From Akkermansia muciniphila (GTDB lineage Bacteria; Verrucomicrobiota; Verrucomicrobiia; Verrucomicrobiales; Akkermansiaceae), in assembly GCA_945873305.1 (NCBI GenBank), contig CAMCCX010000022.1, forward strand, positions 1 to 37,614: 37,614 bases of DNA, given 5' to 3'. The notes below the pieces were generated by a model. It made no database searches. It was not told where the DNA came from and worked only from the letters and a program-made list of their open reading frames with translations. Positions 34 to 13,324 of the stretch are shown piece after piece; positions within the stretch are counted from its first letter, which is position 1; each line of letters opens with the position of its first letter. The translations under genes were made by a program, and so were the position numbers.

Positions 34-2781
34 ATGACAACCATCACCAACAAACTCCTCTGTCTCCTCTTCCCGCTTGTCACGGTCGCCGCCGTGAAGG
101 CGGACGACCCAGGCGCGATTTCCTCCCATGACGTCATCTGGAACACCCCCGGCAAGAACGCCGCCGACTCCATGCCAATTGGTAATGGCGAGCTCGGAAT
201 CAATCTCTGGGTCGAGGAAAACGGCGACCTACTTTTCTATCTCGGCCGCAACGACACCCTCAGCGCGGTTTCCCAACTCTGCAAAGTGGGTGCCGTGCGG
301 GTTTCGCTTTCACCAAACCCCTTCGCCGCCGGCGCGCCCTTCCGCCAGCATCTGAAATTGCGCGATGGAGCTTGCGAAATCACCGCCGGCCCTCCGGACA
401 AACAGGTCAGCCTCCAGGTGTTTGTCGATTCCGCATCTCCGGTCGTTCATCTGCTAGGAAAATCCACGCAGCCGGTCACCGTTACGGCCAAAGTGGAAAG
501 CTGGCGCACGGAACCCCAGGCGGTATCCGATGATTCATCATGGACCATGGCTCAGGCAGCCAACAAACCGCTGCAGGCAGCCGACATCTTTCCCAAAGCG
601 GCAAAACACTCCGTCAGCTGGTATCACCGCAACGAAAACTCTTTCGCCTTTGAGGAAACCATCCGCGTCCAATCGCTGGAATCCATCCGCGATACACTGA
701 AAGACCCGCTGATTCACCGGACCTTCGGCGGCTGGGTCACCGGAACCGGTTTCGAATCCACTGATGATCGCACCCTCGTCACTCCGCAGCCCGTCGGTGA
801 CTTCCACCTGCGCGTGGCCAGCCCCTGCGAGCAGACTCCCACGGCAGAGGCATGGCTGAAATCCGCCGAATCCATCGCAAATGCTGCGGCGGATGGACAG
901 GCCGCCCTGGCCCGCACCTCCGCCTCATGGCAGAAGTTTTGGGATCGCTCTTATGTCGATACCGGATCTTCCCCGGTCACCGGAATCGGCATTCCGGAAA
1001 ATGCCCACCCCGTGAGGATCGGCGTGGATTCGCAAGGCGCCAATCGTTTCGCCGGCAGCATCGGCACCCTCCATCTCACAGGCGAAGTGATCTCTCCGGA
1101 AAAAATCGCCGGACTCGCAAAATCGGAGCCACAGACCGAAACCACCCGCAATCTCGACGCTCCTTCATTCAAGAACGGACTCAGCATCGAAGGTTGGATC
1201 AAGCCGGATTCGGGAGCTGCCGCCCGTATCCTCGACAAGCTCACGGTGGGCGTGAACGACGGGTTCCTGTTCGACATCCAACCCGAAGGAGCACTCCGTT
1301 TGATCGCAGGCCCCGCTCTCATCACCTCGCCGCAGAACGTGATCAAACCCGGCCAATGGCAACATGTTGCTGCCACATTGGATCCGAAAACCACAGCGAT
1401 GATACTCTATGTCGATGGCACGCCAGTGGCTTCGGCGCAGTCCAAGGCTACGCCCGATAACATGACCGTGGGCAAGGCGCACACGCTCCAGCGCTACATG
1501 CAGGCCTGCGCCGGACGCTCGATCTATCCGATCAAATTCAACGGCAGCATCTTCACCGTCGAGCCCACCTATCTCGGACGTGAGGGCAATCCCGACTGGC
1601 GGCGCTGGGGCGATTGCCACTGGTGGCAGAATGTCAGAATGCCCTATCACGCGATGCAGGCTGCCGGGGACTTCGATCTGATGATGCCGCTGTTCGACAC
1701 CTTCGAGCGCATCCGCCCTTATGCCGAGGCGCGGGCGAAACTCTACTTCAAGGCCGAGGGCTGCTATTTCACGGAGACCATGACCATCTGGGGCACCTAC
1801 GCCAACCGCGACTACGGCTGGGACCGCACCGGCAAGAAACCCGGAGAAATGGTGAATATGTGGGTGCGCTACGTCTGGAACCAAGGACTCGAATTGACGG
1901 GGCTGATGCTCGATTACTACGATCACACCGGGGACCAGGTCTTCCTCCAGAAGCGTTTGCTGCCGATGGCGACCTCCGTGTTGAACTACTTCGACACCCG
2001 CTTCCGCAAGGACGCCGAGGGCCGCATCGTCATCGATCCCACCCAGTCCGTGGAAACTTATTGGTATGATGTGATCAATGACACCCCTAGCCTGGCGGGT
2101 CTCAACGATGTGAGCGCACGCCTCTGTGCGCTGCCGGAAACTCTGACATCGCCAGAACAGCGGAAATTTTTCACCCACATGAAAGCGGCCGCGCCGGTGA
2201 TCCCGATCGAGGACGCACAACTCGACGGCAAAACCGTGCGCCGCATCGCGGTGGCGCAGAAATACAATCCGCAGCGCTCCAATTGTGAGAATCCCGAATT
2301 GTTCCCGATCTGGCCGTTCCGCGTCTTCGGTCTGGAGCGCCCGATGTTGGAAGAGGCTCGCAATGCCTATCAACTGCGTGGCGACCACAACGATGTCGGC
2401 TGGGGTTATGACAGCAATGCCGCCGCGCTGCTGGGGCTGACCGATGAGGCCGCTCGCATCATGAAAGTGAAGTTGGCCAACTCCAACGCCGCCTACCGCT
2501 GGCCCGCCACCTGGGGGCCGAACTTCGATTGGTCGCCCGACCAATGCCACGGCGGCAACCTGATGGCATCCATCAACTACATGCTGCTCCAGCATTCCGG
2601 CGACAAGATTCTGCTCCTGCCCGCGTGGCCGAAGGATTGGGATGTTTCCTTCAAACTCCACGCGCCGCGCCAGACCACCGTCGAAGTCATTTATCGCGGC
2701 GGGAAAATCGAAAAACTCGAGGTTTTTCCCCGGGAAAGGAGCAAGGACATCACGCTCCCGGCGGGGATCGACGCCCCGTGA
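34..2781 (+). CDS. Secreted DUF5703/GH95-like glycosidase with an inserted LamG domain
   Basis: Predicted exported protein of 915 residues with a signal peptide (about residues 1-23, ending VKA). Residues about 30-300 match the N-terminal beta domain of DUF5703-type proteins (SMPIGNGELGINLWVEENGD, then the SPNPF and LKLRDG stretches). Residues about 320-475 form a LamG/concanavalin-like domain (SIEGWIKP, WQHVAATLD, LYVDGTPVA). From about 485 an alpha/alpha six-hairpin glycosidase-like domain follows (LQRYMQACAGR, YPIKFNGSIFTVE, WGDCHWWQNVRMPYHAM). Family knowledge suggests hydrolysis of a fucose- or rhamnose-type polysaccharide outside the cytoplasm. The actual substrate is not visible in the sequence. 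The gene lies 65 bp upstream of a DHDPS-family lyase gene on the same strand, so co-transcription is plausible. The start is the ATG before the signal peptide; no strong Shine-Dalgarno is present. Only 33 bases precede it, so upstream partners are unknown. Confidence 0.82.
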   Translation: MTTITNKLLCLLFPLVTVAAVKADDPGAISSHDVIWNTPGKNAADSMPIGNGELGINLWVEENGDLLFYLGRNDTLSAVSQLCKVGAVRVSLSPNPFAAGAPFRQHLKLRDGACEITAGPPDKQVSLQVFVDSASPVVHLLGKSTQPVTVTAKVESWRTEPQAVSDDSSWTMAQAANKPLQAADIFPKAAKHSVSWYHRNENSFAFEETIRVQSLESIRDTLKDPLIHRTFGGWVTGTGFESTDDRTLVTPQPVGDFHLRVASPCEQTPTAEAWLKSAESIANAAADGQAALARTSASWQKFWDRSYVDTGSSPVTGIGIPENAHPVRIGVDSQGANRFAGSIGTLHLTGEVISPEKIAGLAKSEPQTETTRNLDAPSFKNGLSIEGWIKPDSGAAARILDKLTVGVNDGFLFDIQPEGALRLIAGPALITSPQNVIKPGQWQHVAATLDPKTTAMILYVDGTPVASAQSKATPDNMTVGKAHTLQRYMQACAGRSIYPIKFNGSIFTVEPTYLGREGNPDWRRWGDCHWWQNVRMPYHAMQAAGDFDLMMPLFDTFERIRPYAEARAKLYFKAEGCYFTETMTIWGTYANRDYGWDRTGKKPGEMVNMWVRYVWNQGLELTGLMLDYYDHTGDQVFLQKRLLPMATSVLNYFDTRFRKDAEGRIVIDPTQSVETYWYDVINDTPSLAGLNDVSARLCALPETLTSPEQRKFFTHMKAAAPVIPIEDAQLDGKTVRRIAVAQKYNPQRSNCENPELFPIWPFRVFGLERPMLEEARNAYQLRGDHNDVGWGYDSNAAALLGLTDEAARIMKVKLANSNAAYRWPATWGPNFDWSPDQCHGGNLMASINYMLLQHSGDKILLLPAWPKDWDVSFKLHAPRQTTVEVIYRGGKIEKLEVFPRERSKDITLPAGIDAP

Positions 2782-2846: not shown

Positions 2847-3872
2847 ATGTCTTCGTCACAATCCACCATCAACGGCATTTTTGTCCCCAACATTGTTCCC
2901 TACGACGCCAAGGGGCGCATCGATGAGGACGAACTCCGCCACATCATCCGCTGGGTGGGAGACAAGGGCGTCACCGGATTCTATCCGAACGGCAGTATGG
3001 GCGAGTTCATCCGCCTCAGCTACGAGGAACGCCGGACCGTGGTGCGCATCGTCAGCGAGGAGGCAAACGGCCGCCCAATCCTCGCCGGTGCCGCAGAAGC
3101 GAACATCGAGTTGGTTTTGGAAATGTGCAACTACTGCGCCGATCTCGGCTGCCGCGCGGTATCCATCACCGGCCCGTATTATTACAAACTCACCCAGGAG
3201 AGCATCGAGGCCTACTTCCGCGAACTGGCCGCCAAGTCGCCGATCGACATCGTGGTGTATAACATCCCGGTCTTCGCCAACGAAATCTCGCTGCCCGTAC
3301 TGGAGCGCCTCGCCATGGATTGCCCGCGCATCGTCGGCACCAAGGACACGTCCAAGGACATGGGCCGCTTCCAACAGACACTGCACACCATCAAGCGCCA
3401 GCGCCCGGATTTCTCGGTGCTCATCGGCTGGGAGGAACTGCTCTGCACCGGCCTCTTCATGGGGGCCGACGGCGGCACGCTCTCCAGCGCCGGCGTCGTG
3501 CCCGAGGTGGTGATGAGCCTCTATCACGCCGCCCGTGCCGGAAACTGGGAGAAGGCGAAGCAAATCCAGTTCGAGCTTCTCGACCTGTTCTCGCTGATGG
3601 TCGGCGCGCCGAATTTCCCCGAAGGCTTCCGCACCGGATACGAACTCCGCGGCTTCAAGGCCGGGAACGCCCGATTCCCGCTTTCACCCGCCGAACAAGG
3701 ACTCATCGCCGAGATGCGCTCCAAGCTCGCCTGCGTGCTCGCCGGCTGCGGCTTCGAGGAGGCTGCTAGCGAGTGCAAAATCAGCTGCCCGCCCAAGGCT
3801 CCGTCAGCCATGGACATCGACGCCATCGTCCAGGCCGTGATCCAAGGGGTGCAGGCCGCCCAATCCCGCTAA
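2847..3872 (+). CDS. DHDPS/N-acetylneuraminate lyase family aldolase, probably BMC-encapsulated
   Basis: Class I (Schiff-base) lyase of the DapA/NanA family, 341 residues. The TIM-barrel core spans about residues 8-305: substrate-loop motif NGSMGEF (48-54), catalytic Tyr138 in VVYNIP, Schiff-base Lys166 in GTKDTSKD. Family members cleave or form 2-keto acids, with pyruvate as a common product, from sugar acids such as 2-keto-3-deoxy sugars or sialic acid; substrate cannot be read from sequence. The usual length is about 290-310. Here the core is followed by a low-complexity linker (about 308-321, PPKAPSA) and a terminal amphipathic helix, the layout of a microcompartment encapsulation peptide. 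The next gene, 6 bp downstream, encodes a BMC shell protein, which supports that reading. A biosynthetic DapA role is less likely given the neighbours, but not excluded. Confidence 0.88.
   Translation: MSSSQSTINGIFVPNIVPYDAKGRIDEDELRHIIRWVGDKGVTGFYPNGSMGEFIRLSYEERRTVVRIVSEEANGRPILAGAAEANIELVLEMCNYCADLGCRAVSITGPYYYKLTQESIEAYFRELAAKSPIDIVVYNIPVFANEISLPVLERLAMDCPRIVGTKDTSKDMGRFQQTLHTIKRQRPDFSVLIGWEELLCTGLFMGADGGTLSSAGVVPEVVMSLYHAARAGNWEKAKQIQFELLDLFSLMVGAPNFPEGFRTGYELRGFKAGNARFPLSPAEQGLIAEMRSKLACVLAGCGFEEAASECKISCPPKAPSAMDIDAIVQAVIQGVQAAQSR
3810..3869 (+). other. Candidate BMC encapsulation peptide (C-terminal tail of the lyase)
   Basis: This stretch encodes residues 322-341 of the lyase, MDIDAIVQAVIQGVQAAQSR. 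Hydrophobic residues fall at 324, 327, 328, 331, 332 and 335, an i, i+3, i+4, i+7, i+8, i+11 pattern that places them on one face of a helix. A Pro/Ala/Lys/Ser linker separates the helix from the enzyme core. Short terminal amphipathic helices behind a flexible linker are the known signature of cargo targeted to BMC shells. The function here is inferred from pattern and neighbourhood. Confidence 0.66.
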
Positions 3873-3878
3873 CCGATC

Positions 3879-4499
3879 ATGCAAGCGCTCGGATTCATCG
3901 AAGCTCCCTTCCTCAGCATTTCCGCCATGCTCGCCCACGAGGCGGCCACCGCGGCGGATGTCCACATCCTCGGGTTCGAGGGCACCGGCAACGAAAACCT
4001 GCTCATCCGCCTCTCCGGCGACATCGCCCAGGTCCGCGCCGCGCTCGATGCCGCGGAGAGACTCGCCCCGCAGCTCGGCGCATCCATCGTCACCGGGACC
4101 ATCGCCCGCCCGGCCGAGGGATTCGACCCGATGATTCATTTCCCGAATGCAAACAACCCGCTCTACGGCGGCCGTGACCAACTCCTGCCCACCGACCATC
4201 CAGCCAACCCCGACTCTACCAAAAACATGAAACCACAAGCCATCGGCATCCTTGAAACCCAGGGCCTCACCGCCATCCTCGAAGCCACCGACGCCATGCT
4301 CAAGGCGGCGGACGTGAAACTCGTGGGTAAGGAAAAAATCGGCGCAGCCTACGTGACCGTCATCGTCAGCGGCGACGTCGCCGCCGTATCCGCCGCCATC
4401 GAGGCGGGTAAACAAGCGGTCGGCTCGCTCGGCAAAGTCATCGCCGCACACGTCATCGCCCGCCCGCATGACGAGTTGGTCGCGCTGTTGCCCAAATAG
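3879..4499 (+). CDS. Tandem BMC-domain shell protein (BMC-T, PduT-like)
   Basis: Bacterial microcompartment shell protein, 206 residues, with two BMC domains in one chain. Domain 1 is about residues 1-80 (MQALGFIEAPFLSISAML, LLIRLSGDIAQVRAALDAAE). Domain 2 is about residues 117-206 (AIGILETQGLTAILEATDAM, VSGDVAAVSAAIEAG, ending VIARPHDEL). The order resembles the PduT class, whose trimers form pseudohexameric shell tiles. The 36-residue linker (81-116, with NNPLYGGRDQLLP) is long for that class. No cysteine occurs anywhere in the protein, so a PduT-style Fe-S cluster at the pore is unlikely. The start lies 6 bp after the lyase stop codon, implying translational coupling. An internal ATG at 4227 could start domain 2 alone, but it lacks a clear Shine-Dalgarno. 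No hexamer or pentamer shell gene is present in the window; further shell genes must lie upstream or elsewhere. Confidence 0.88.
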   Translation: MQALGFIEAPFLSISAMLAHEAATAADVHILGFEGTGNENLLIRLSGDIAQVRAALDAAERLAPQLGASIVTGTIARPAEGFDPMIHFPNANNPLYGGRDQLLPTDHPANPDSTKNMKPQAIGILETQGLTAILEATDAMLKAADVKLVGKEKIGAAYVTVIVSGDVAAVSAAIEAGKQAVGSLGKVIAAHVIARPHDELVALLPK

Positions 4500-7979: not shown

Positions 7980-10229
7980 TCAGCGGTTGGCATGGATGCG
8001 GGTGAAGCGTTTCGGCTGGCCGGAGGCGGGGAAGGGGTCTCGCACTTCCAAGAGGAACGGGCTGTTGGTGATGGTCACTCCGGAATCCCAGTGGATGAGG
8101 TCCGAGCTGAAATCGACTGCTGTCGAGGCATCGCCCGGCACCGGCCCGCGCGGGATGCTCATGGTCCAGTAGCGGGTGCCGCCCATGTCGCGGAATGCCA
8201 TCTTCTGCGAGATCGGCGCGTTGGGATAGCCGACGGTGAGGCCGAGCGCGTATTCCAGCAGATCCGGCCATTGGTCGCCATCGCTGTCGAGCTTGGGAGC
8301 GGTGGCAGGGTCGCCAACCGTCACGCTGACCATGCCGAGGTTCGAATCCGCGTAGCCATCGAACGCCGCATAGCTGAACGAGTCCGCTCCGGCGAAACCA
8401 TGATCCGGATAATAAGTAGCGACGTGATTGTTCAAAGCCACAGTGCCGTGCTGTGGCTGGCTGACGATGCGCAGGGTGGCGCTGGTCTCATTGGAACCGA
8501 GCGTCAAGCTGCCGGACGCGTTGACCGCAGTGACCAGTGTCTTGCGGGTGACGACGGGCGGCGCGTTGCCGTTGAAAAGCCCGCCGAGAGCTCCGTTGTC
8601 CTCGCGTTGGTGGCACAGGAAACAACTGACGTTTGCTCCGCGGAAAAGCGGGATGTCATGTGGTGTGCCATCGTGACTGAAGGTGAGCGTCTGGTCGGAA
8701 AACGAGCGCGAGAGCGGGGTGCCGCGGCGGTCAGCACCGTGGCAGCCGAGGCATGAGCCGCTTTGGCCGTAGTCCTTGTGGGCATTGATCCAGTTGGTGC
8801 CGGTGGGATGCATGCCGTGAGGTCCGCCGCTGACCGTGGAGGGCATCGATACGTGGCAGGAGGTGCAGTTGGAACGGGTGCCGGCGTGCCCCTGCGCAGT
8901 GATGTTCTGAAGGTTGTCGTTCCGATGGCTTGCGGGAAACTCGGCGTGGGTCGAACCATGACAGGCGCTGCACTGAAGGCCGCCATGACCTTTGGAGAAA
9001 CGATAAAGTGATTTGTCGGCGAGAGGCGTGTTGGGATTGGTGGCGAACATCTGGCTGACGGGAACACGGGGCGCGCCATTGGTATCAAATACCGAAGTAT
9101 AACGGAGCTGGCCATTGTTCTGGGTGGCGCTGCCTGTATGGCACTGTTGGCAGTTAGGCTCATCGAGCCAACCGGTGCGGTCGGCGGCTCCGACCTGGCT
9201 CATGGTGCCGTGGCAACTCTGGCACTGCATCGCGGCGGAACCGTCGGGCGCGACCGCCGAGCCCATCGCGCCGCGCAGGCAGCGTGTTTCCGATCCCGGG
9301 TGGCATTGATAACACGAACTCCGGTTGGCGATGTTGTTGAGACTCATGCCGGTGTTTGGAGCGATCACCTCAGCATGCTTCGAATGCATCGACCGGGTCA
9401 GCGAATTGACGTCGGGGAAACTGGCTGCGCCGAGCGCCTCCGAAGCGTGGCAGGCGGCGCAGAGGACCGGATGGTCATGGTCGCGCACGCTCGCTTCGAG
9501 TCCTTCCGGCGGATAACCCTTGGCGGCCAGCGCGTCATCATAAGGCTGCGTGCCGACGTGACGGTCGTGCAGGCGCAGGATGTTCAAGCGGTGATCGCGC
9601 GCGGAGTCCGGCTCATTCACCCAGCCGGCGGCCGGTTTCGCGGCATCGCCCGAGCCGGACGAGTGGCACTTGCGGCAATCCATTTCAGTGGAAACCGGCA
9701 GCACCACATCCGTAGTCGCCAGCACCGTGCCGCCGGTGGTTTTCGCCGTGAGGCGCATCAACGGATAGGGATTGAATTGACCTGCGTCGTCCACCGGCGT
9801 GATCGGCACTCCCGCCGCCTCGAACCATTTCATGGCTCCGTCAAAGCCCATGGCCTGCGGCGTGTTGGATGCCCCGGGCATGTTTCTGCCAGGATTTCCC
9901 GCCGGAAACGGCAGCCCGTAATCCGGCGGAAGCGGCGCGTTGAAAAGCACCGGCGAATAATCCCAGAAGTTCGTTTTCCCGATGGAACTCGTGTTGATAG
10001 ATCCATCCGGATCGGCGACGGCCTGGTAGGTCACCACGATGCCGGTCGAGTCCGTGACCAGATGGCCCTGGGCATCGAGGAGTTGGCAATCCACGGTGTT
10101 GTAGGGCGGCAGGATCGAGAACACCGAGTAATCATCGTCCATGCAATGCATGCCGAGATTGTTCCAGCCGACGAGCGTTTGCGCCGCTGCGGCGGCGGCG
10201 AGACCGAGCAGTATGGCGAGGGGTTTCAT
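7980..10229 (-). CDS. Secreted nine-heme cytochrome c with C-terminal beta domain
   Basis: Exported 749-residue protein with a short signal peptide (residues 1-16). Nine CxxCH heme-binding motifs start at Cys185, 257, 306, 336, 360, 420, 455, 493 and 536. The N-terminal segment (GWNNLGMHCMDDDYSVFSI) belongs to a conserved domain seen ahead of multiheme regions in environmental bacteria. Residues about 560-640 resemble a cadherin/Ig-like repeat (GTVALNNHVATYYPD, GADSFSYAAFDGYAD). Near 648 an acidic DSDGDQWPDLLEYALGL calcium-loop-like stretch follows, then a C-terminal module. Such proteins carry electrons across the periplasm or on the outer surface; the redox partner is unknown. Its start overlaps the stop of the upstream giant repeat protein (ATGA), indicating coupled expression. 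Confidence 0.9.
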   Translation of the reverse strand: MKPLAILLGLAAAAAAQTLVGWNNLGMHCMDDDYSVFSILPPYNTVDCQLLDAQGHLVTDSTGIVVTYQAVADPDGSINTSSIGKTNFWDYSPVLFNAPLPPDYGLPFPAGNPGRNMPGASNTPQAMGFDGAMKWFEAAGVPITPVDDAGQFNPYPLMRLTAKTTGGTVLATTDVVLPVSTEMDCRKCHSSGSGDAAKPAAGWVNEPDSARDHRLNILRLHDRHVGTQPYDDALAAKGYPPEGLEASVRDHDHPVLCAACHASEALGAASFPDVNSLTRSMHSKHAEVIAPNTGMSLNNIANRSSCYQCHPGSETRCLRGAMGSAVAPDGSAAMQCQSCHGTMSQVGAADRTGWLDEPNCQQCHTGSATQNNGQLRYTSVFDTNGAPRVPVSQMFATNPNTPLADKSLYRFSKGHGGLQCSACHGSTHAEFPASHRNDNLQNITAQGHAGTRSNCTSCHVSMPSTVSGGPHGMHPTGTNWINAHKDYGQSGSCLGCHGADRRGTPLSRSFSDQTLTFSHDGTPHDIPLFRGANVSCFLCHQREDNGALGGLFNGNAPPVVTRKTLVTAVNASGSLTLGSNETSATLRIVSQPQHGTVALNNHVATYYPDHGFAGADSFSYAAFDGYADSNLGMVSVTVGDPATAPKLDSDGDQWPDLLEYALGLTVGYPNAPISQKMAFRDMGGTRYWTMSIPRGPVPGDASTAVDFSSDLIHWDSGVTITNSPFLLEVRDPFPASGQPKRFTRIHANR

Positions 10230-13200
10230 GGCTTTTTCAGACGGAAGAACAAATTCTGCGGTGCAGGATCGGCCACTTCCACATGATGCAGTCCGTCATG
10301 CGGCGTATCGGGACGATTCGAGTTCGTCCATGAACCGGGAGCCAAGCTTGGGCTTTCCTCAAGGATCCAGTCAGCGGGAGCAAGCGACCATTCCATCGAG
10401 AACGCGACGCCCGGCGCGGGGGCATGCTGGATATCGATCGGCGTGGGTACGTCAGCTACCACGAAATTGGCAACCAGCGAGCGCACTCCGTTCACGGTAA
10501 AGTCGTAGGAATTCAACGTGCTGACGCTCGCGCCGTTTTCCGTCCAGCCTTGGAAGACATAGCCGGGAGTCGCCGTGGCGGTTAGGGATGCGGTGTCACC
10601 CGCGATGTGCAGGCCGCCGCCAGTCACGACTCCGCCGATTGCGGGCGAGGCACCGGCCACGATGTTGAGATACGGTGTGAAATTGGCGACCAGACGGCGG
10701 TTTGCCGCCGCAGTGAACACGTAGTTGGTATCGGCGCTGACCTCCGTGCCATCCTCGGTCCATTTCACGAAGGCGTAACCTTCCTCAGGCAATGCCGAAA
10801 CCATAACATCATCTCCGTCGGCGTATGGACCGTCGCCGGTGGTGGTGCCGCCCATGCTGGTTGACGAAGTCGTGGTGACGGTCACGCCCGCGTCCCAGGT
10901 GAAGTGTGCCACCAGTTCGCGGTTGCCAGTGATGGTGAAGTCATAGGTCGGGTTTGTGCTGACCACCGTGCCGTGATCGGTCCAGTTCTCGAAACTCCAA
11001 CCGTCTTCCGGGAAGGCTTTTGCCTTGGCGTTTTCGCCGGTTTTGTAGCTGATGCTGTCCATCTCGGTGGTGCCGCCGATGGCGGGTGATGAGGTCGAAG
11101 TGACCACGAAGAACTCGTCGAACTTCGCCACCAGCGTGCGGTTGGCCGTGACAGTGAAGCTATAGCTCGGCGAGGTGCTCACCTGCGTTTCCCCCTCCTG
11201 CCACTTTGAAAACTTGTAGCCGGGTTTGGGAGAGGCCGCGACGGTGGCGATGACGCCGGTTAGGTAGGTGCCGTTTCCACTCACCGTGCCGCCCGCCACC
11301 GGGTTCGCGCTGGTGGTGACGGATTTGGGAACTCCCGCTAGAACGAAGTCCGCCACGATTGCTTTGTTGGAGGTGATTGTGAACGTATAGCTCGCTGGAC
11401 TGCCCACGAGAGTACTGCCGACTTTCCATCCGGCAAAGACATAACCCGGCGATGCCACCGCCACCACGGTAGCGCTGGCGCTGCTCGGATAGTTTCCTCC
11501 GCCGCTGACCGTGCCGCCTGCGACGGGTGTCGCGCTGACGCTCATCGCAAAGGTCGGAGTGACGATGAAGTTCGCCATCAGCGTCCGGTCCGCTGTGGCG
11601 GGGAACGTATAGGTTGCGTCGCTGCTGACCGCGGTGCCGCCCTCGGTCCAGTTCACGAACGAATAGCCCGCATTCGGGGCTGCAACGACCGTTGTAATGC
11701 TGCCGTGGTCCACCAGGCCGCCGCCGCTAGTGCTGCCTTCCGCCGGGCTGGCGCTGGTGGCGATAGTCCGTTGCTGCAGGTTGGAGAAATTGGCGACGAG
11801 CGAATGGTTCACGTCGATGGCGAAGGTGTGGCTGGTCGAGTTGGCAACGACCTTGCCGTTGTCCGTCCAATTCACGAAATGGAAGCCATCCGCGGCGTTG
11901 GCGGTAGCGGTCAGTGTGACATCCGTGCCGGACGCAAACGAACCGTCACCCGTGGTTGTGCCGGAACCGGGCGGTGAAACCGACGTGTCGACCAAGCTCT
12001 CCGGAGGCAGCGCCTGCCCCTCGGCCGCGACGCGAAGCGTGTAGGTTTTCGAAATTTCCGGGAGTTCGCCGTCGTCGGCGGTGATTTTGAAAATGAACTC
12101 GCCGCTCGCCATGGGAGTGCCGGAGAGCACGCCGGTCACGGCGTCGAAATCCATGCCGACAGGCAGCCCGCCGGTGATGGTGCTTGTGAATGGCAACGCG
12201 CCTTCCACTACCACCGTGCGTGCGGCAAAGGGCGCGTTCACCTCACCCTCGCCGATGTGGTCGATGAGTCCGACGGGTGCGTCCGCATCCACCGCCGCCA
12301 TTTGTGAACCGGTGAAGTCGCCGACGATTTCCACGGTGGACAGGTCCACTTCGACGCCGTTGATGAGTTTGACACCCACGCCGTGAATGCCGTCCGCAGC
12401 GACGGATTGCGCCAAGGCCTCGGCGGTTTCGATATCGAGCGGGCCGGTGTATTTGTAGAACTCGTAGCGCCGCGTGACGACTTCATCGGCGTTGGGCAGT
12501 TCTTCCGCCGCGGCTGCCAGTTCGTTGTTCGGCGCATCCGCCTTGTGGTAGTCCTTTTGCAGGACCTGCCATTCGGTTTCCACCTCGTCGGGCTCGCCGT
12601 TGCGCCAGTTCTTGTCATTGGAGTCCTCGGGATCGTCCGAGAGCAGGTTGCGCAGCTTCACCTCGTTGTTGTTGTGGGTGGTGGTGCGGATTTCCTTCAC
12701 CCACACCGCCTTGCCGAATTCCTTGGGCTCCGGCGCGGGTGGCGGCGGCGGCTGGATCACGGCCTGCACCGCCGGCACGCCACCAACAGCAGCCGGAAAA
12801 TAGGTGAACGTCGGCGTCGAGACCTGCACCGCCCCGCCGCGCACCAGCGCACCGGCCTGATCGACGAGCCAGTTGTAGCGGATGGCGCCGACGGCGACGT
12901 TGTAGCCCACGCCGAAGTGCTCGCCGCCGAAGTTGACCGCCGGATTGGTGAACATGTGGCCGTTGGTCGGCGCGATCGGGCCGCTGGGAATGGCGGTGTA
13001 GGATGCCCAGGAGCCATCCGGGTTCTTCTTGCTCTCCCAGCGGATGATGCACTTGGGATGCCCGGCCACTGAGTCGTCCTGGGTGATTTTGGGCGTTCCG
13101 TAGTGGTTGTAGTCGTAGGTGTAGCTGATGTCGGTGCTGCGGCAGTCCTCGAGTTCGATCTCGAAACCGTGGCAATCGCTGCCGGTATCGTTGACGGTGT

Positions 13201-13324
13201 CGAAATTATTAATGCTGCCGTAGGCGATGCTCGCGCGGGCTGAGCCGGCGAGGAGCGGGATGAGGCATGCGATGGGGAGCCATAACAGGCGGGGGCGGCG
13301 CGGGCCGGCGGGACGGGCTTTCAT
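10226..13324 (-). CDS. Giant secreted protein with Ig-like domain and seven InlB-type B-repeats
   Basis: Exported 1032-residue protein. A basic and hydrophobic signal peptide (about 1-31, ending ARA) precedes a unique N-terminal region (about 32-200) with several cysteines and a Pro-rich hinge near 191-200. A charged region (about 200-345) follows. A putative Ig/He_PIG domain lies at about 360-432 (LPVGMDFDAVTGVLSGTP). Seven tandem repeats of about 73 residues (444-954) each end like RxLVANF and contain a GYxFxxWTExGxxVS core, typical of InlB B-repeat/Listeria-Bacteroides repeats. The last 75 residues form a C-terminal module ending LFFRLKKP, likely for sorting. A surface adhesin or scaffold role is inferred. 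Translational coupling to the nine-heme cytochrome suggests the two work together at the cell surface. Confidence 0.86.
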   Translation of the reverse strand: MKARPAGPRRPRLLWLPIACLIPLLAGSARASIAYGSINNFDTVNDTGSDCHGFEIELEDCRSTDISYTYDYNHYGTPKITQDDSVAGHPKCIIRWESKKNPDGSWASYTAIPSGPIAPTNGHMFTNPAVNFGGEHFGVGYNVAVGAIRYNWLVDQAGALVRGGAVQVSTPTFTYFPAAVGGVPAVQAVIQPPPPPAPEPKEFGKAVWVKEIRTTTHNNNEVKLRNLLSDDPEDSNDKNWRNGEPDEVETEWQVLQKDYHKADAPNNELAAAAEELPNADEVVTRRYEFYKYTGPLDIETAEALAQSVAADGIHGVGVKLINGVEVDLSTVEIVGDFTGSQMAAVDADAPVGLIDHIGEGEVNAPFAARTVVVEGALPFTSTITGGLPVGMDFDAVTGVLSGTPMASGEFIFKITADDGELPEISKTYTLRVAAEGQALPPESLVDTSVSPPGSGTTTGDGSFASGTDVTLTATANAADGFHFVNWTDNGKVVANSTSHTFAIDVNHSLVANFSNLQQRTIATSASPAEGSTSGGGLVDHGSITTVVAAPNAGYSFVNWTEGGTAVSSDATYTFPATADRTLMANFIVTPTFAMSVSATPVAGGTVSGGGNYPSSASATVVAVASPGYVFAGWKVGSTLVGSPASYTFTITSNKAIVADFVLAGVPKSVTTSANPVAGGTVSGNGTYLTGVIATVAASPKPGYKFSKWQEGETQVSTSPSYSFTVTANRTLVAKFDEFFVVTSTSSPAIGGTTEMDSISYKTGENAKAKAFPEDGWSFENWTDHGTVVSTNPTYDFTITGNRELVAHFTWDAGVTVTTTSSTSMGGTTTGDGPYADGDDVMVSALPEEGYAFVKWTEDGTEVSADTNYVFTAAANRRLVANFTPYLNIVAGASPAIGGVVTGGGLHIAGDTASLTATATPGYVFQGWTENGASVSTLNSYDFTVNGVRSLVANFVVADVPTPIDIQHAPAPGVAFSMEWSLAPADWILEESPSLAPGSWTNSNRPDTPHDGLHHVEVADPAPQNLFFRLKKP
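10463..11995 (-). repeat. Seven tandem ~73-residue B-repeats within the secreted protein
   Basis: Residues 444-954 of the giant secreted protein hold seven diverged copies of one module. Each has a small-residue stretch rich in Gly (GGTVSGGGNY-like), a GYxFxxW core, an acidic WTExGTxVS turn and a closing LVANF-like strand. At DNA level the copies are too diverged to be recent duplications, so slippage is not expected. Confidence 0.85.

Follow-up and report, generated by a model that had tools for sequence, protein, structure and literature searches.

What would a sugar-acid aldolase with a helical tail be doing beside the gene of a microcompartment shell protein? The question is raised by a stretch of 37,614 nucleotides from Akkermansia muciniphila (GenBank assembly GCA_945873305.1, contig CAMCCX010000022.1), here called the window, which is the entire contig C22 of a genome of 3.06 Mb in 171 contigs (95% complete). 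Near its start, a class I aldolase of 341 aa from the dihydrodipicolinate synthase (DHDPS)/NanA family (2847..3872, + strand) is followed by a shell protein of 206 aa with two bacterial microcompartment (BMC) domains (3879..4499, + strand). Our analysis suggested that the two probably form a satellite module of the Planctomycetes–Verrucomicrobia microcompartment (PVM), and that the lyase would be a second, encapsulated aldolase producing lactaldehyde; we infer its substrate, its encapsulation and the role of a pore in the shell protein from sequence and gene context.

The lyase and its shell partner

The lyase matched the Pfam family PF00701 (DHDPS) with an E-value of 2.4e-51. Residue 138 is Tyr and residue 166 is Lys, and both are invariant in all 53 aligned rows, as are the NGS.GE and YNIP motifs. 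The Schiff-base Lys and the catalytic Tyr on a TIM barrel place the protein among the DHDPS/NAL class I aldolases, and its best Foldseek match was YagE (TM-score 0.91, target length). Among solved sequences, the nearest was again YagE with a 53-row profile, and 2-keto-3-deoxygluconate (KDG) aldolase with an 8-row profile. The lyase belongs neither to DapA nor to NanA by the NCBIfam models: it reached 134 bits against a dapA cut-off of 206, and 150 against 281 and 134 against 382 bits with the two nanA models. The genome has a separate DapA on contig C145 (336 bits, above the dapA cut-off), which together with the score of the lyase rules out that the lyase is DapA. In addition, the lyase reads YNIPVFANE where DapA-type enzymes have Arg; the DapA on C145 reads YSVPGRS there.

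The open reading frame of the shell protein begins 6 bp past the lyase stop and contains two PF00936 domains, both in ordinary BMC-H order. Its AlphaFold2 model has a mean predicted local distance difference test (pLDDT) of 85, and the top fold match was the tandem BMC-H protein of the synthetic shell 6NER. CcmO gave the top NCBIfam match, at 114.5 bits against a cut-off of 270, so that the protein does not count as a CcmO. Some loops are conserved by eye, namely KEKIGAA in domain 2 (23 of 25 rows) and GNEN in domain 1 (13 of 25), and they may line a pore suited to a keto acid or pyruvate. Between the domains lies a segment (4107..4232, + strand) with a conserved N-P/A-LYGG motif, seen by eye in 21 of the 25 rows of alignment A3 and modeled with a pLDDT of about 60 at residues 91-120; it could serve docking or the lattice. 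Domain 2 starts at an internal Met (NMKPQAIG, window 4227-4229) that is also found in close relatives, and may be a separate internal start. Other genomes of the genus (G006:C9, G018:C16, G019:C304, G026:C110, G029:C62 and G036:C49) carry a different type of tandem BMC gene, in which both domains score about 81-87 bits.

For comparison we used 80 relative loci, the best 80 of 573 candidates from a scan of named genomes, to which all counts out of 80 refer. They come mainly from Verrucomicrobiota and Planctomycetota, with two from Latescibacterota, one from Omnitrophota and one from an unnamed-bacterium record. In 41 of the 80, the lyase is followed on the same strand, within 1.3 kb, by a BMC-domain gene, and in one further arrangement (locus L106) that gene lies upstream; of 23 spacings measured between the lyase and the BMC gene, 19 fell between -4 and +19 bp. 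Because a BMC gene follows the lyase in those 41 loci and the lyase tail is kept in 74 of the 80, the pairing is not a matter of chance.

The lyase tail as a candidate encapsulation signal

The last 32 residues of the lyase (310-341; 3774..3869, + strand) lie past the conserved core and are proposed to be an encapsulation peptide. In the AlphaFold monomer the core is confident, the linker at residues 315-322 has a pLDDT below 50, and a helix spans residues 324-340. The tail was recognized in 72 relatives by a motif, which was defined after tails had been seen, and in L128 and L159 by eye. It is missing from six: L084, whose C-terminus is disrupted and which shares its assembly with L082, and L119, L124, L134, L142 and L150. 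More distant homologues served as controls, with a usable reading frame from 15 of 23 control loci, and the loose motif matched in only one of the 15, as far as visible by chance. The lyase tail is in this respect what encapsulation peptides are expected to be, a terminal helix behind a flexible linker that is absent from untagged homologues. Tag-like helices also close the 18 class II aldolases of main PVM loci whose ends could be compared by eye.

In a tree built without the tail columns, 78 lyases formed one group (SH-aLRT 99) apart from 11 controls, which were 10 of the 15 control loci and DapA; L084 with its disrupted end and the near copies L094 and L148 were omitted, and the position of the controls is less secure because some of them sit on long branches. 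Presence of the tail requires six changes across this tree of 89 rows, a number consistent with a single gain and five losses. Across relatives, 25 of 74 tails were more amphipathic than all but 5% of their shuffles. It is well supported that the lyase is a predicted microcompartment cargo by its tail, because of the conservation, position and context of the helix and not because of the amphipathicity of any single tail.

What an earlier note saw in the letters of the window, without database searches, has been borne out by these results, and its interpretation is supported in part. Its DapA/NanA-type lyase with intact Tyr138 and Lys166 agrees with the PF00701 match and the invariance of both residues, its two-domain shell gene 6 bp downstream agrees with the coordinates and the PF00936 domains, and its 32-residue tail of linker and helix recurs in the AlphaFold model. 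The reading of that tail as an encapsulation tag also gains from its flexible linker, its retention, the few changes on the tree and the association with BMC-bearing genomes described below, all of which speak for it at the level of sequence.

The host organelle and its co-occurrence with the lyase

A look across the genome for BMC-H, BMC-P, aldehyde dehydrogenase and phosphotransacylase genes, as the earlier note had proposed, found them together on contig C12. The locus there has three BMC-P and three BMC-H genes, together with pduL, an acetate-kinase-like gene, an aldehyde dehydrogenase, a class II aldolase and a malate/lactate dehydrogenase. With NCBIfam models, the aldehyde dehydrogenase and the kinase scored above a cut-off and the aldolase below, with FucA-type models among its matches; pduL and the malate/lactate dehydrogenase were named from reading the sequence, pduL without a family search. 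Three BMC-P genes with BMC-H in one locus, beside a class II aldolase, aldehyde dehydrogenase, PduL and kinase, are the marks of a PVM-type host.

Satellite BMC loci are defined, in the available portions of PMC4207490 and PMC8217296, as having one shell-gene type and lying away from the main locus of the genome. PF00936 is the only shell-gene family on C22 and the main locus is on C12, and the pair in the window is a satellite locus because the standard PVM locus sits elsewhere in the same genome. The two can also be close to each other: the lyase of L114 adjoins main-locus genes, and that of L112 lies near pduL.

Of the 46 BMC-P-positive genomes, 20 had their main PVM locus read, and 19 of these loci contain a class II aldolase; the twentieth (L163) is truncated by a contig end. 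The lyase as a replacement for the class II aldolase is ruled out by this count. The earlier suggestion that the lyase may be the signature cargo is not supported, given the same count and the standard PVM locus elsewhere in the genome. With class II aldolases in 19 of the 20 main loci, 18 of them with tag-like ends, two aldolases would feed one organelle.

The lyase and the organelle tend to occur together. Among 59 genomes tested, 37 of them from the genus of the window, PF00936 genes were found in 22, and within the genus in 19 of 37; all seven genus genomes with a near-full-length lyase (at least 55% identity) were among these 19 (p 0.005), and one of the seven (G014) has a tail-less lyase (L134). 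A class-wide sample of 286 genomes had the lyase (E up to 1e-60) in 20, BMC-P in 97 and both in 18, with a Fisher p of 1.1e-7 that ignores kinship; the two exceptions were G152 (74% complete) and G231 (99% complete, tail-less lyase), which by coordinates and size correspond to the genomes of L112 and L150. Finally, 49 lyase-bearing genomes, representing 50 of the 80 loci chosen for spread and including the tail-less L119, L124, L142 and L150, were searched for BMC-P, which was present in 46; exactly three BMC-P matches were found in 45 of these and five in one.

The same tail in genomes without BMC genes would speak against a tag, as the earlier note had held. In this partial test on the 49 genomes, three had no BMC-P: that of L112 is 74% complete and has pduL on the lyase contig, that of L150 has a tail-less lyase, and L094 is a suspected mis-binned contig, as its record carries a Hydrogenedentota title with the same match figures and lyase end as L093 from an Opitutales record. 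A one-to-one rule between tail and BMC is not supported, given tail-less lyases in the BMC-bearing genomes G014, G072, G084 and G094; G072 also has a tailed copy (L103). In one genus genome, a lyase fragment of 46 residues with two stops (G005:C77:18195-18332) was found; the genome is 94% complete and has no PF00936 match, and the fragment resembles a gene left to decay once the organelle was lost.

Gene neighborhood and proposed substrate

Genes near close relatives of the lyase, and in its own genome, fit a non-phosphorylating route for fucose or rhamnose. At L082, whose lyase is 91% identical to that of the window, the lyase and tandem BMC genes are preceded on the same strand by RhaT-like and FucP-like permeases, a lactonase, a galactarate/altronate-dehydratase-family protein, a short-chain dehydrogenase/reductase (SDR) and a fragment of a glycoside hydrolase of family 29 (GH29). 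The SDR scored 363 bits against an NCBIfam L-fucose dehydrogenase cut-off of 300. The lactonase had L-fucono-1,5-lactonase as its sole NCBIfam match, below cut-off, and the permeases were also below theirs (252 against 280 bits for the FucP-like one).

A comparable set is found on contig C43 of the genome of the window: an SSS transporter, an SDR (156 against 300 bits, below the L-fucose dehydrogenase cut-off), a GH29 fucosidase, a dehydratase of the mandelate racemase/muconate lactonizing enzyme (MR/MLE) superfamily, a RhaM-type mutarotase, RhaT, a GH29 piece, a MaoC-like gene and a lactonase that runs off the contig end. Eight bases are common to the end of C43 and the start of the window, and the lactonase frame, carried into the window, stops overlapping the start of a glycoside hydrolase gene at 34, which suggests that C43 and the window may be one operon. 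This glycoside hydrolase-like protein (34..2781, + strand) has the Pfam domains PF18961 (DUF5703_N), PF13385 (LamG-like) and PF22124 (GH95-like catalytic domain), and a hydrolase of like kind precedes the lyase in L081/L043; it is probably a sugar supplier in the same operon as the lyase.

From this context, we propose that the lyase is a 2-keto-3-deoxy-L-fuconate (L-KDF) or 2-keto-3-deoxy-L-rhamnonate aldolase. L-KDF aldolase yields pyruvate and L-lactaldehyde as the last step of one non-phosphorylating fucose branch (PMC11199699, in the part available), and lactaldehyde is handled by PVM compartments (PMC8857213, likewise). The release of an aldehyde and pyruvate, raised as a possibility in the earlier note, would be consistent with these neighbors. 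Exclusive use of a non-phosphorylating route for fucose in this genome is not supported, since a fucose-isomerase domain and a rhamnulokinase-like gene are present; the phosphorylated route may thus exist too, side by side with the other or with the sugars divided between them.

Further neighbors recur. A MaoC-like gene (by Pfam on C43, by eye in the others) and a CaiB-type CoA transferase (by eye) stand beside lactonase and RhaT genes at L187 (on C43; 848-1363 and 3486-4649, - strand), L082, L083, L090 and L095. A URO-D/MtaA-like gene lies between SDR and dehydratase at L086 (2722-3975, by a similar sequence start) and L103 (6669-7916, by Pfam).

Proposed role and alternative explanations

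The evidence is probably best explained if the lyase and the tandem shell protein are a PVM satellite module. A dehydrogenase, a lactonase and a dehydratase in the cytosol would turn L-fucose, and possibly L-rhamnose, into 2-keto-3-deoxy-L-fuconate or -rhamnonate. The tagged aldolase would dock within the shell through its C-terminal helix and cleave the keto-deoxy acid by a Schiff base on Lys166 to pyruvate and L-lactaldehyde, which would then be processed by the aldehyde dehydrogenase, PduL and acetate-kinase-like enzymes of the main locus. Because the tagged aldolase would cleave inside the shell, lactaldehyde would arise where these enzymes are. The tandem shell protein may act as a pseudohexameric tile, possibly with a pore that lets the keto acid in and pyruvate out. 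On a wider view, to which we lean slightly, the PVM would be an organelle with two inputs. Its shell, supplied by the phosphorylated route, would also receive lactaldehyde from the non-phosphorylating one through an ancient portable satellite, made up of the tagged aldolase and a dedicated tandem tile that has a pore of its own, and pyruvate would leave. This satellite would occur across Verrucomicrobiota, Planctomycetota and Latescibacterota.

Several observations weigh against this proposal. For each of the seven NCBIfam models that it matched, the lyase scored under the cut-off, and its closest solved homologues carry names for other sugar acids. Among the fucose-specific models searched (L-fucose dehydrogenase, L-fucono-lactonase, FucP, RhaT and L-rhamnonate dehydratase), only the SDR of L082 passes. 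Lactonase, SDR or MR/MLE genes are near 49 of the 80 relatives, and two or more near 23, by superfamily-level matches from single-query phmmer searches in flanks bounded by contig ends. C43 and the window may not be adjacent, and no overlap of 15 bases or more was found between them. The fucose-isomerase domain and the rhamnulokinase-like gene, the latter below cut-off, would belong to the other route. On the side of encapsulation, 38 of the 80 relatives lack a BMC gene in the 1.3 kb after the lyase (the contig ends first in one more), the hydrophobic moment of the window tail is reached by 12% of shuffles and is not unusual for its composition, and lyases without the tail are found in four BMC-bearing genomes (L134/G014, L124/G072, L119/G084 and L142/G094).

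The substrate is the point at which another explanation comes nearest. The lyase could be a PVM cargo that cleaves another 2-keto-3-deoxy acid, of the gluconate, galactonate or pentonate type, to give glyceraldehyde or glycolaldehyde in the shell. YagE is named a probable 2-keto-3-deoxy-galactonate aldolase, and the other near solved sequence is an aldolase of KDG and its 6-phosphate (KDPG); the MR/MLE dehydratase of C43 scored best with L-talarate/galactarate dehydratase, below cut-off, and 31 of the 80 relatives are without a lactonase, SDR or MR/MLE neighbor. We nevertheless consider such a substrate unlikely, as GH29 domains, RhaT/FucP-like transporters, mutarotase, lactonase and the above-cut-off L-fucose dehydrogenase of L082 are found with the pair or on C43, and the organelle shared by these genomes is the lactaldehyde-handling PVM type.

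Two other explanations are less likely still. The tail may be a helix that binds the tetramer or a partner and carries no encapsulation signal, with the shell gene as a separate satellite that shares the operon by chance. This would fit a tail that is by itself not unusually amphipathic and the four tail-less lyases named above, but it becomes very unlikely in view of the low-confidence linker before the helix, the similar ends of the 18 class II aldolases, the strong co-occurrence of lyase and BMC-P, and the tail-less L150 in a genome without BMC-P. That the pair is an independent microcompartment, distinct from the PVM and with the lyase as its signature enzyme, could be read from its having a shell gene to itself, on a contig apart from the main locus; we find it scarcely credible, since all three BMC-P matches of the genome are on C12, 45 of the 46 BMC-P-positive genomes have exactly three, and a phmmer query for the PVM aldehyde dehydrogenase had no best match in the 80 lyase loci.

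Relation to known systems

In Campylobacter jejuni, the dapA-type gene of the fucose operon (Cj0481) reportedly encodes the L-KDF aldolase. The Campylobacter operon has, in the available text of PMC12566272, a dapA-type gene with altronate-hydrolase-type genes, a dehydrogenase and an amidohydrolase. A similar company of dehydrogenase, amidohydrolase, galactarate/altronate-type dehydratase and FucP-like permease is found in L082 (PMC12566272; PMC11199699, in part); the tail and the shell gene would be extra features of the module described here.

The main locus of the present genome contains what has been described for PVM-type BMCs, namely three BMC-P, BMC-H, aldehyde dehydrogenase, an acetate-kinase-like gene, a class II aldolase and a lactate/malate dehydrogenase (PMC4207490; PMC8857213; available portions), whereas the tailed class I DHDPS-family aldolase and the tandem BMC protein in a satellite locus are additional. 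The PVM aldolase named in the accessible parts of PMC4207490, PMC8217296 and PMC8857213 is solely class II (AraD-like), and the words dihydrodipicolinate or DHDPS do not occur in those of PMC4207490 and PMC8217296. In its arrangement the module resembles the 'EUT modules' of HO/SPU compartments, satellites that pair a substrate enzyme with its corresponding tandem shell protein and are proposed to extend the main BMC to another substrate (PMC8217296, in part); here, however, the enzyme is a sugar-acid aldolase instead of ethanolamine enzymes, and the tandem is of ordinary order, not of EutL type. Two BMC-H-like domains are likewise shared with CcmO and the 6NER tandem protein, while the conserved inter-domain segment and the metabolosome, not carboxysome, context are particular to the module.

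The earlier note knew of no described BMC type with exactly this pair, and the literature searched, some of it available in part, likewise yielded no description of a tagged DHDPS-family lyase as BMC cargo or of a lyase combined with a tandem BMC protein. A non-phosphorylated fucose pathway in sponge-associated Verrucomicrobia is credited to Sizikov 2020 in the available part of PMC12263773, and part of the present findings may therefore already be in print. The components look like parts known singly, which the module would bring together as an add-on that places a second aldehyde-making enzyme and its own shell protein in the fucose/rhamnose organelle.

In the sources as far as available, a single class II aldolase that works on phosphorylated sugars is described as supplying the PVM. 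If the proposal is true, the same shell also admits a phosphate-free keto acid. The demands on its pores would then be different, and this could be the reason for a special shell protein accompanying the enzyme. The pair would further make it possible to recognize, from their genes, polysaccharide degraders with the non-phosphorylating fucose/rhamnose route, and compartment engineering would gain a new cargo tag and a new aldolase.

Other features of the window

Farther along the window, on the - strand, a multihaem cytochrome-like protein with an Ig-type domain (7980-10229) adjoins a large protein with seven divergent InlB-type repeats (10226-13324).

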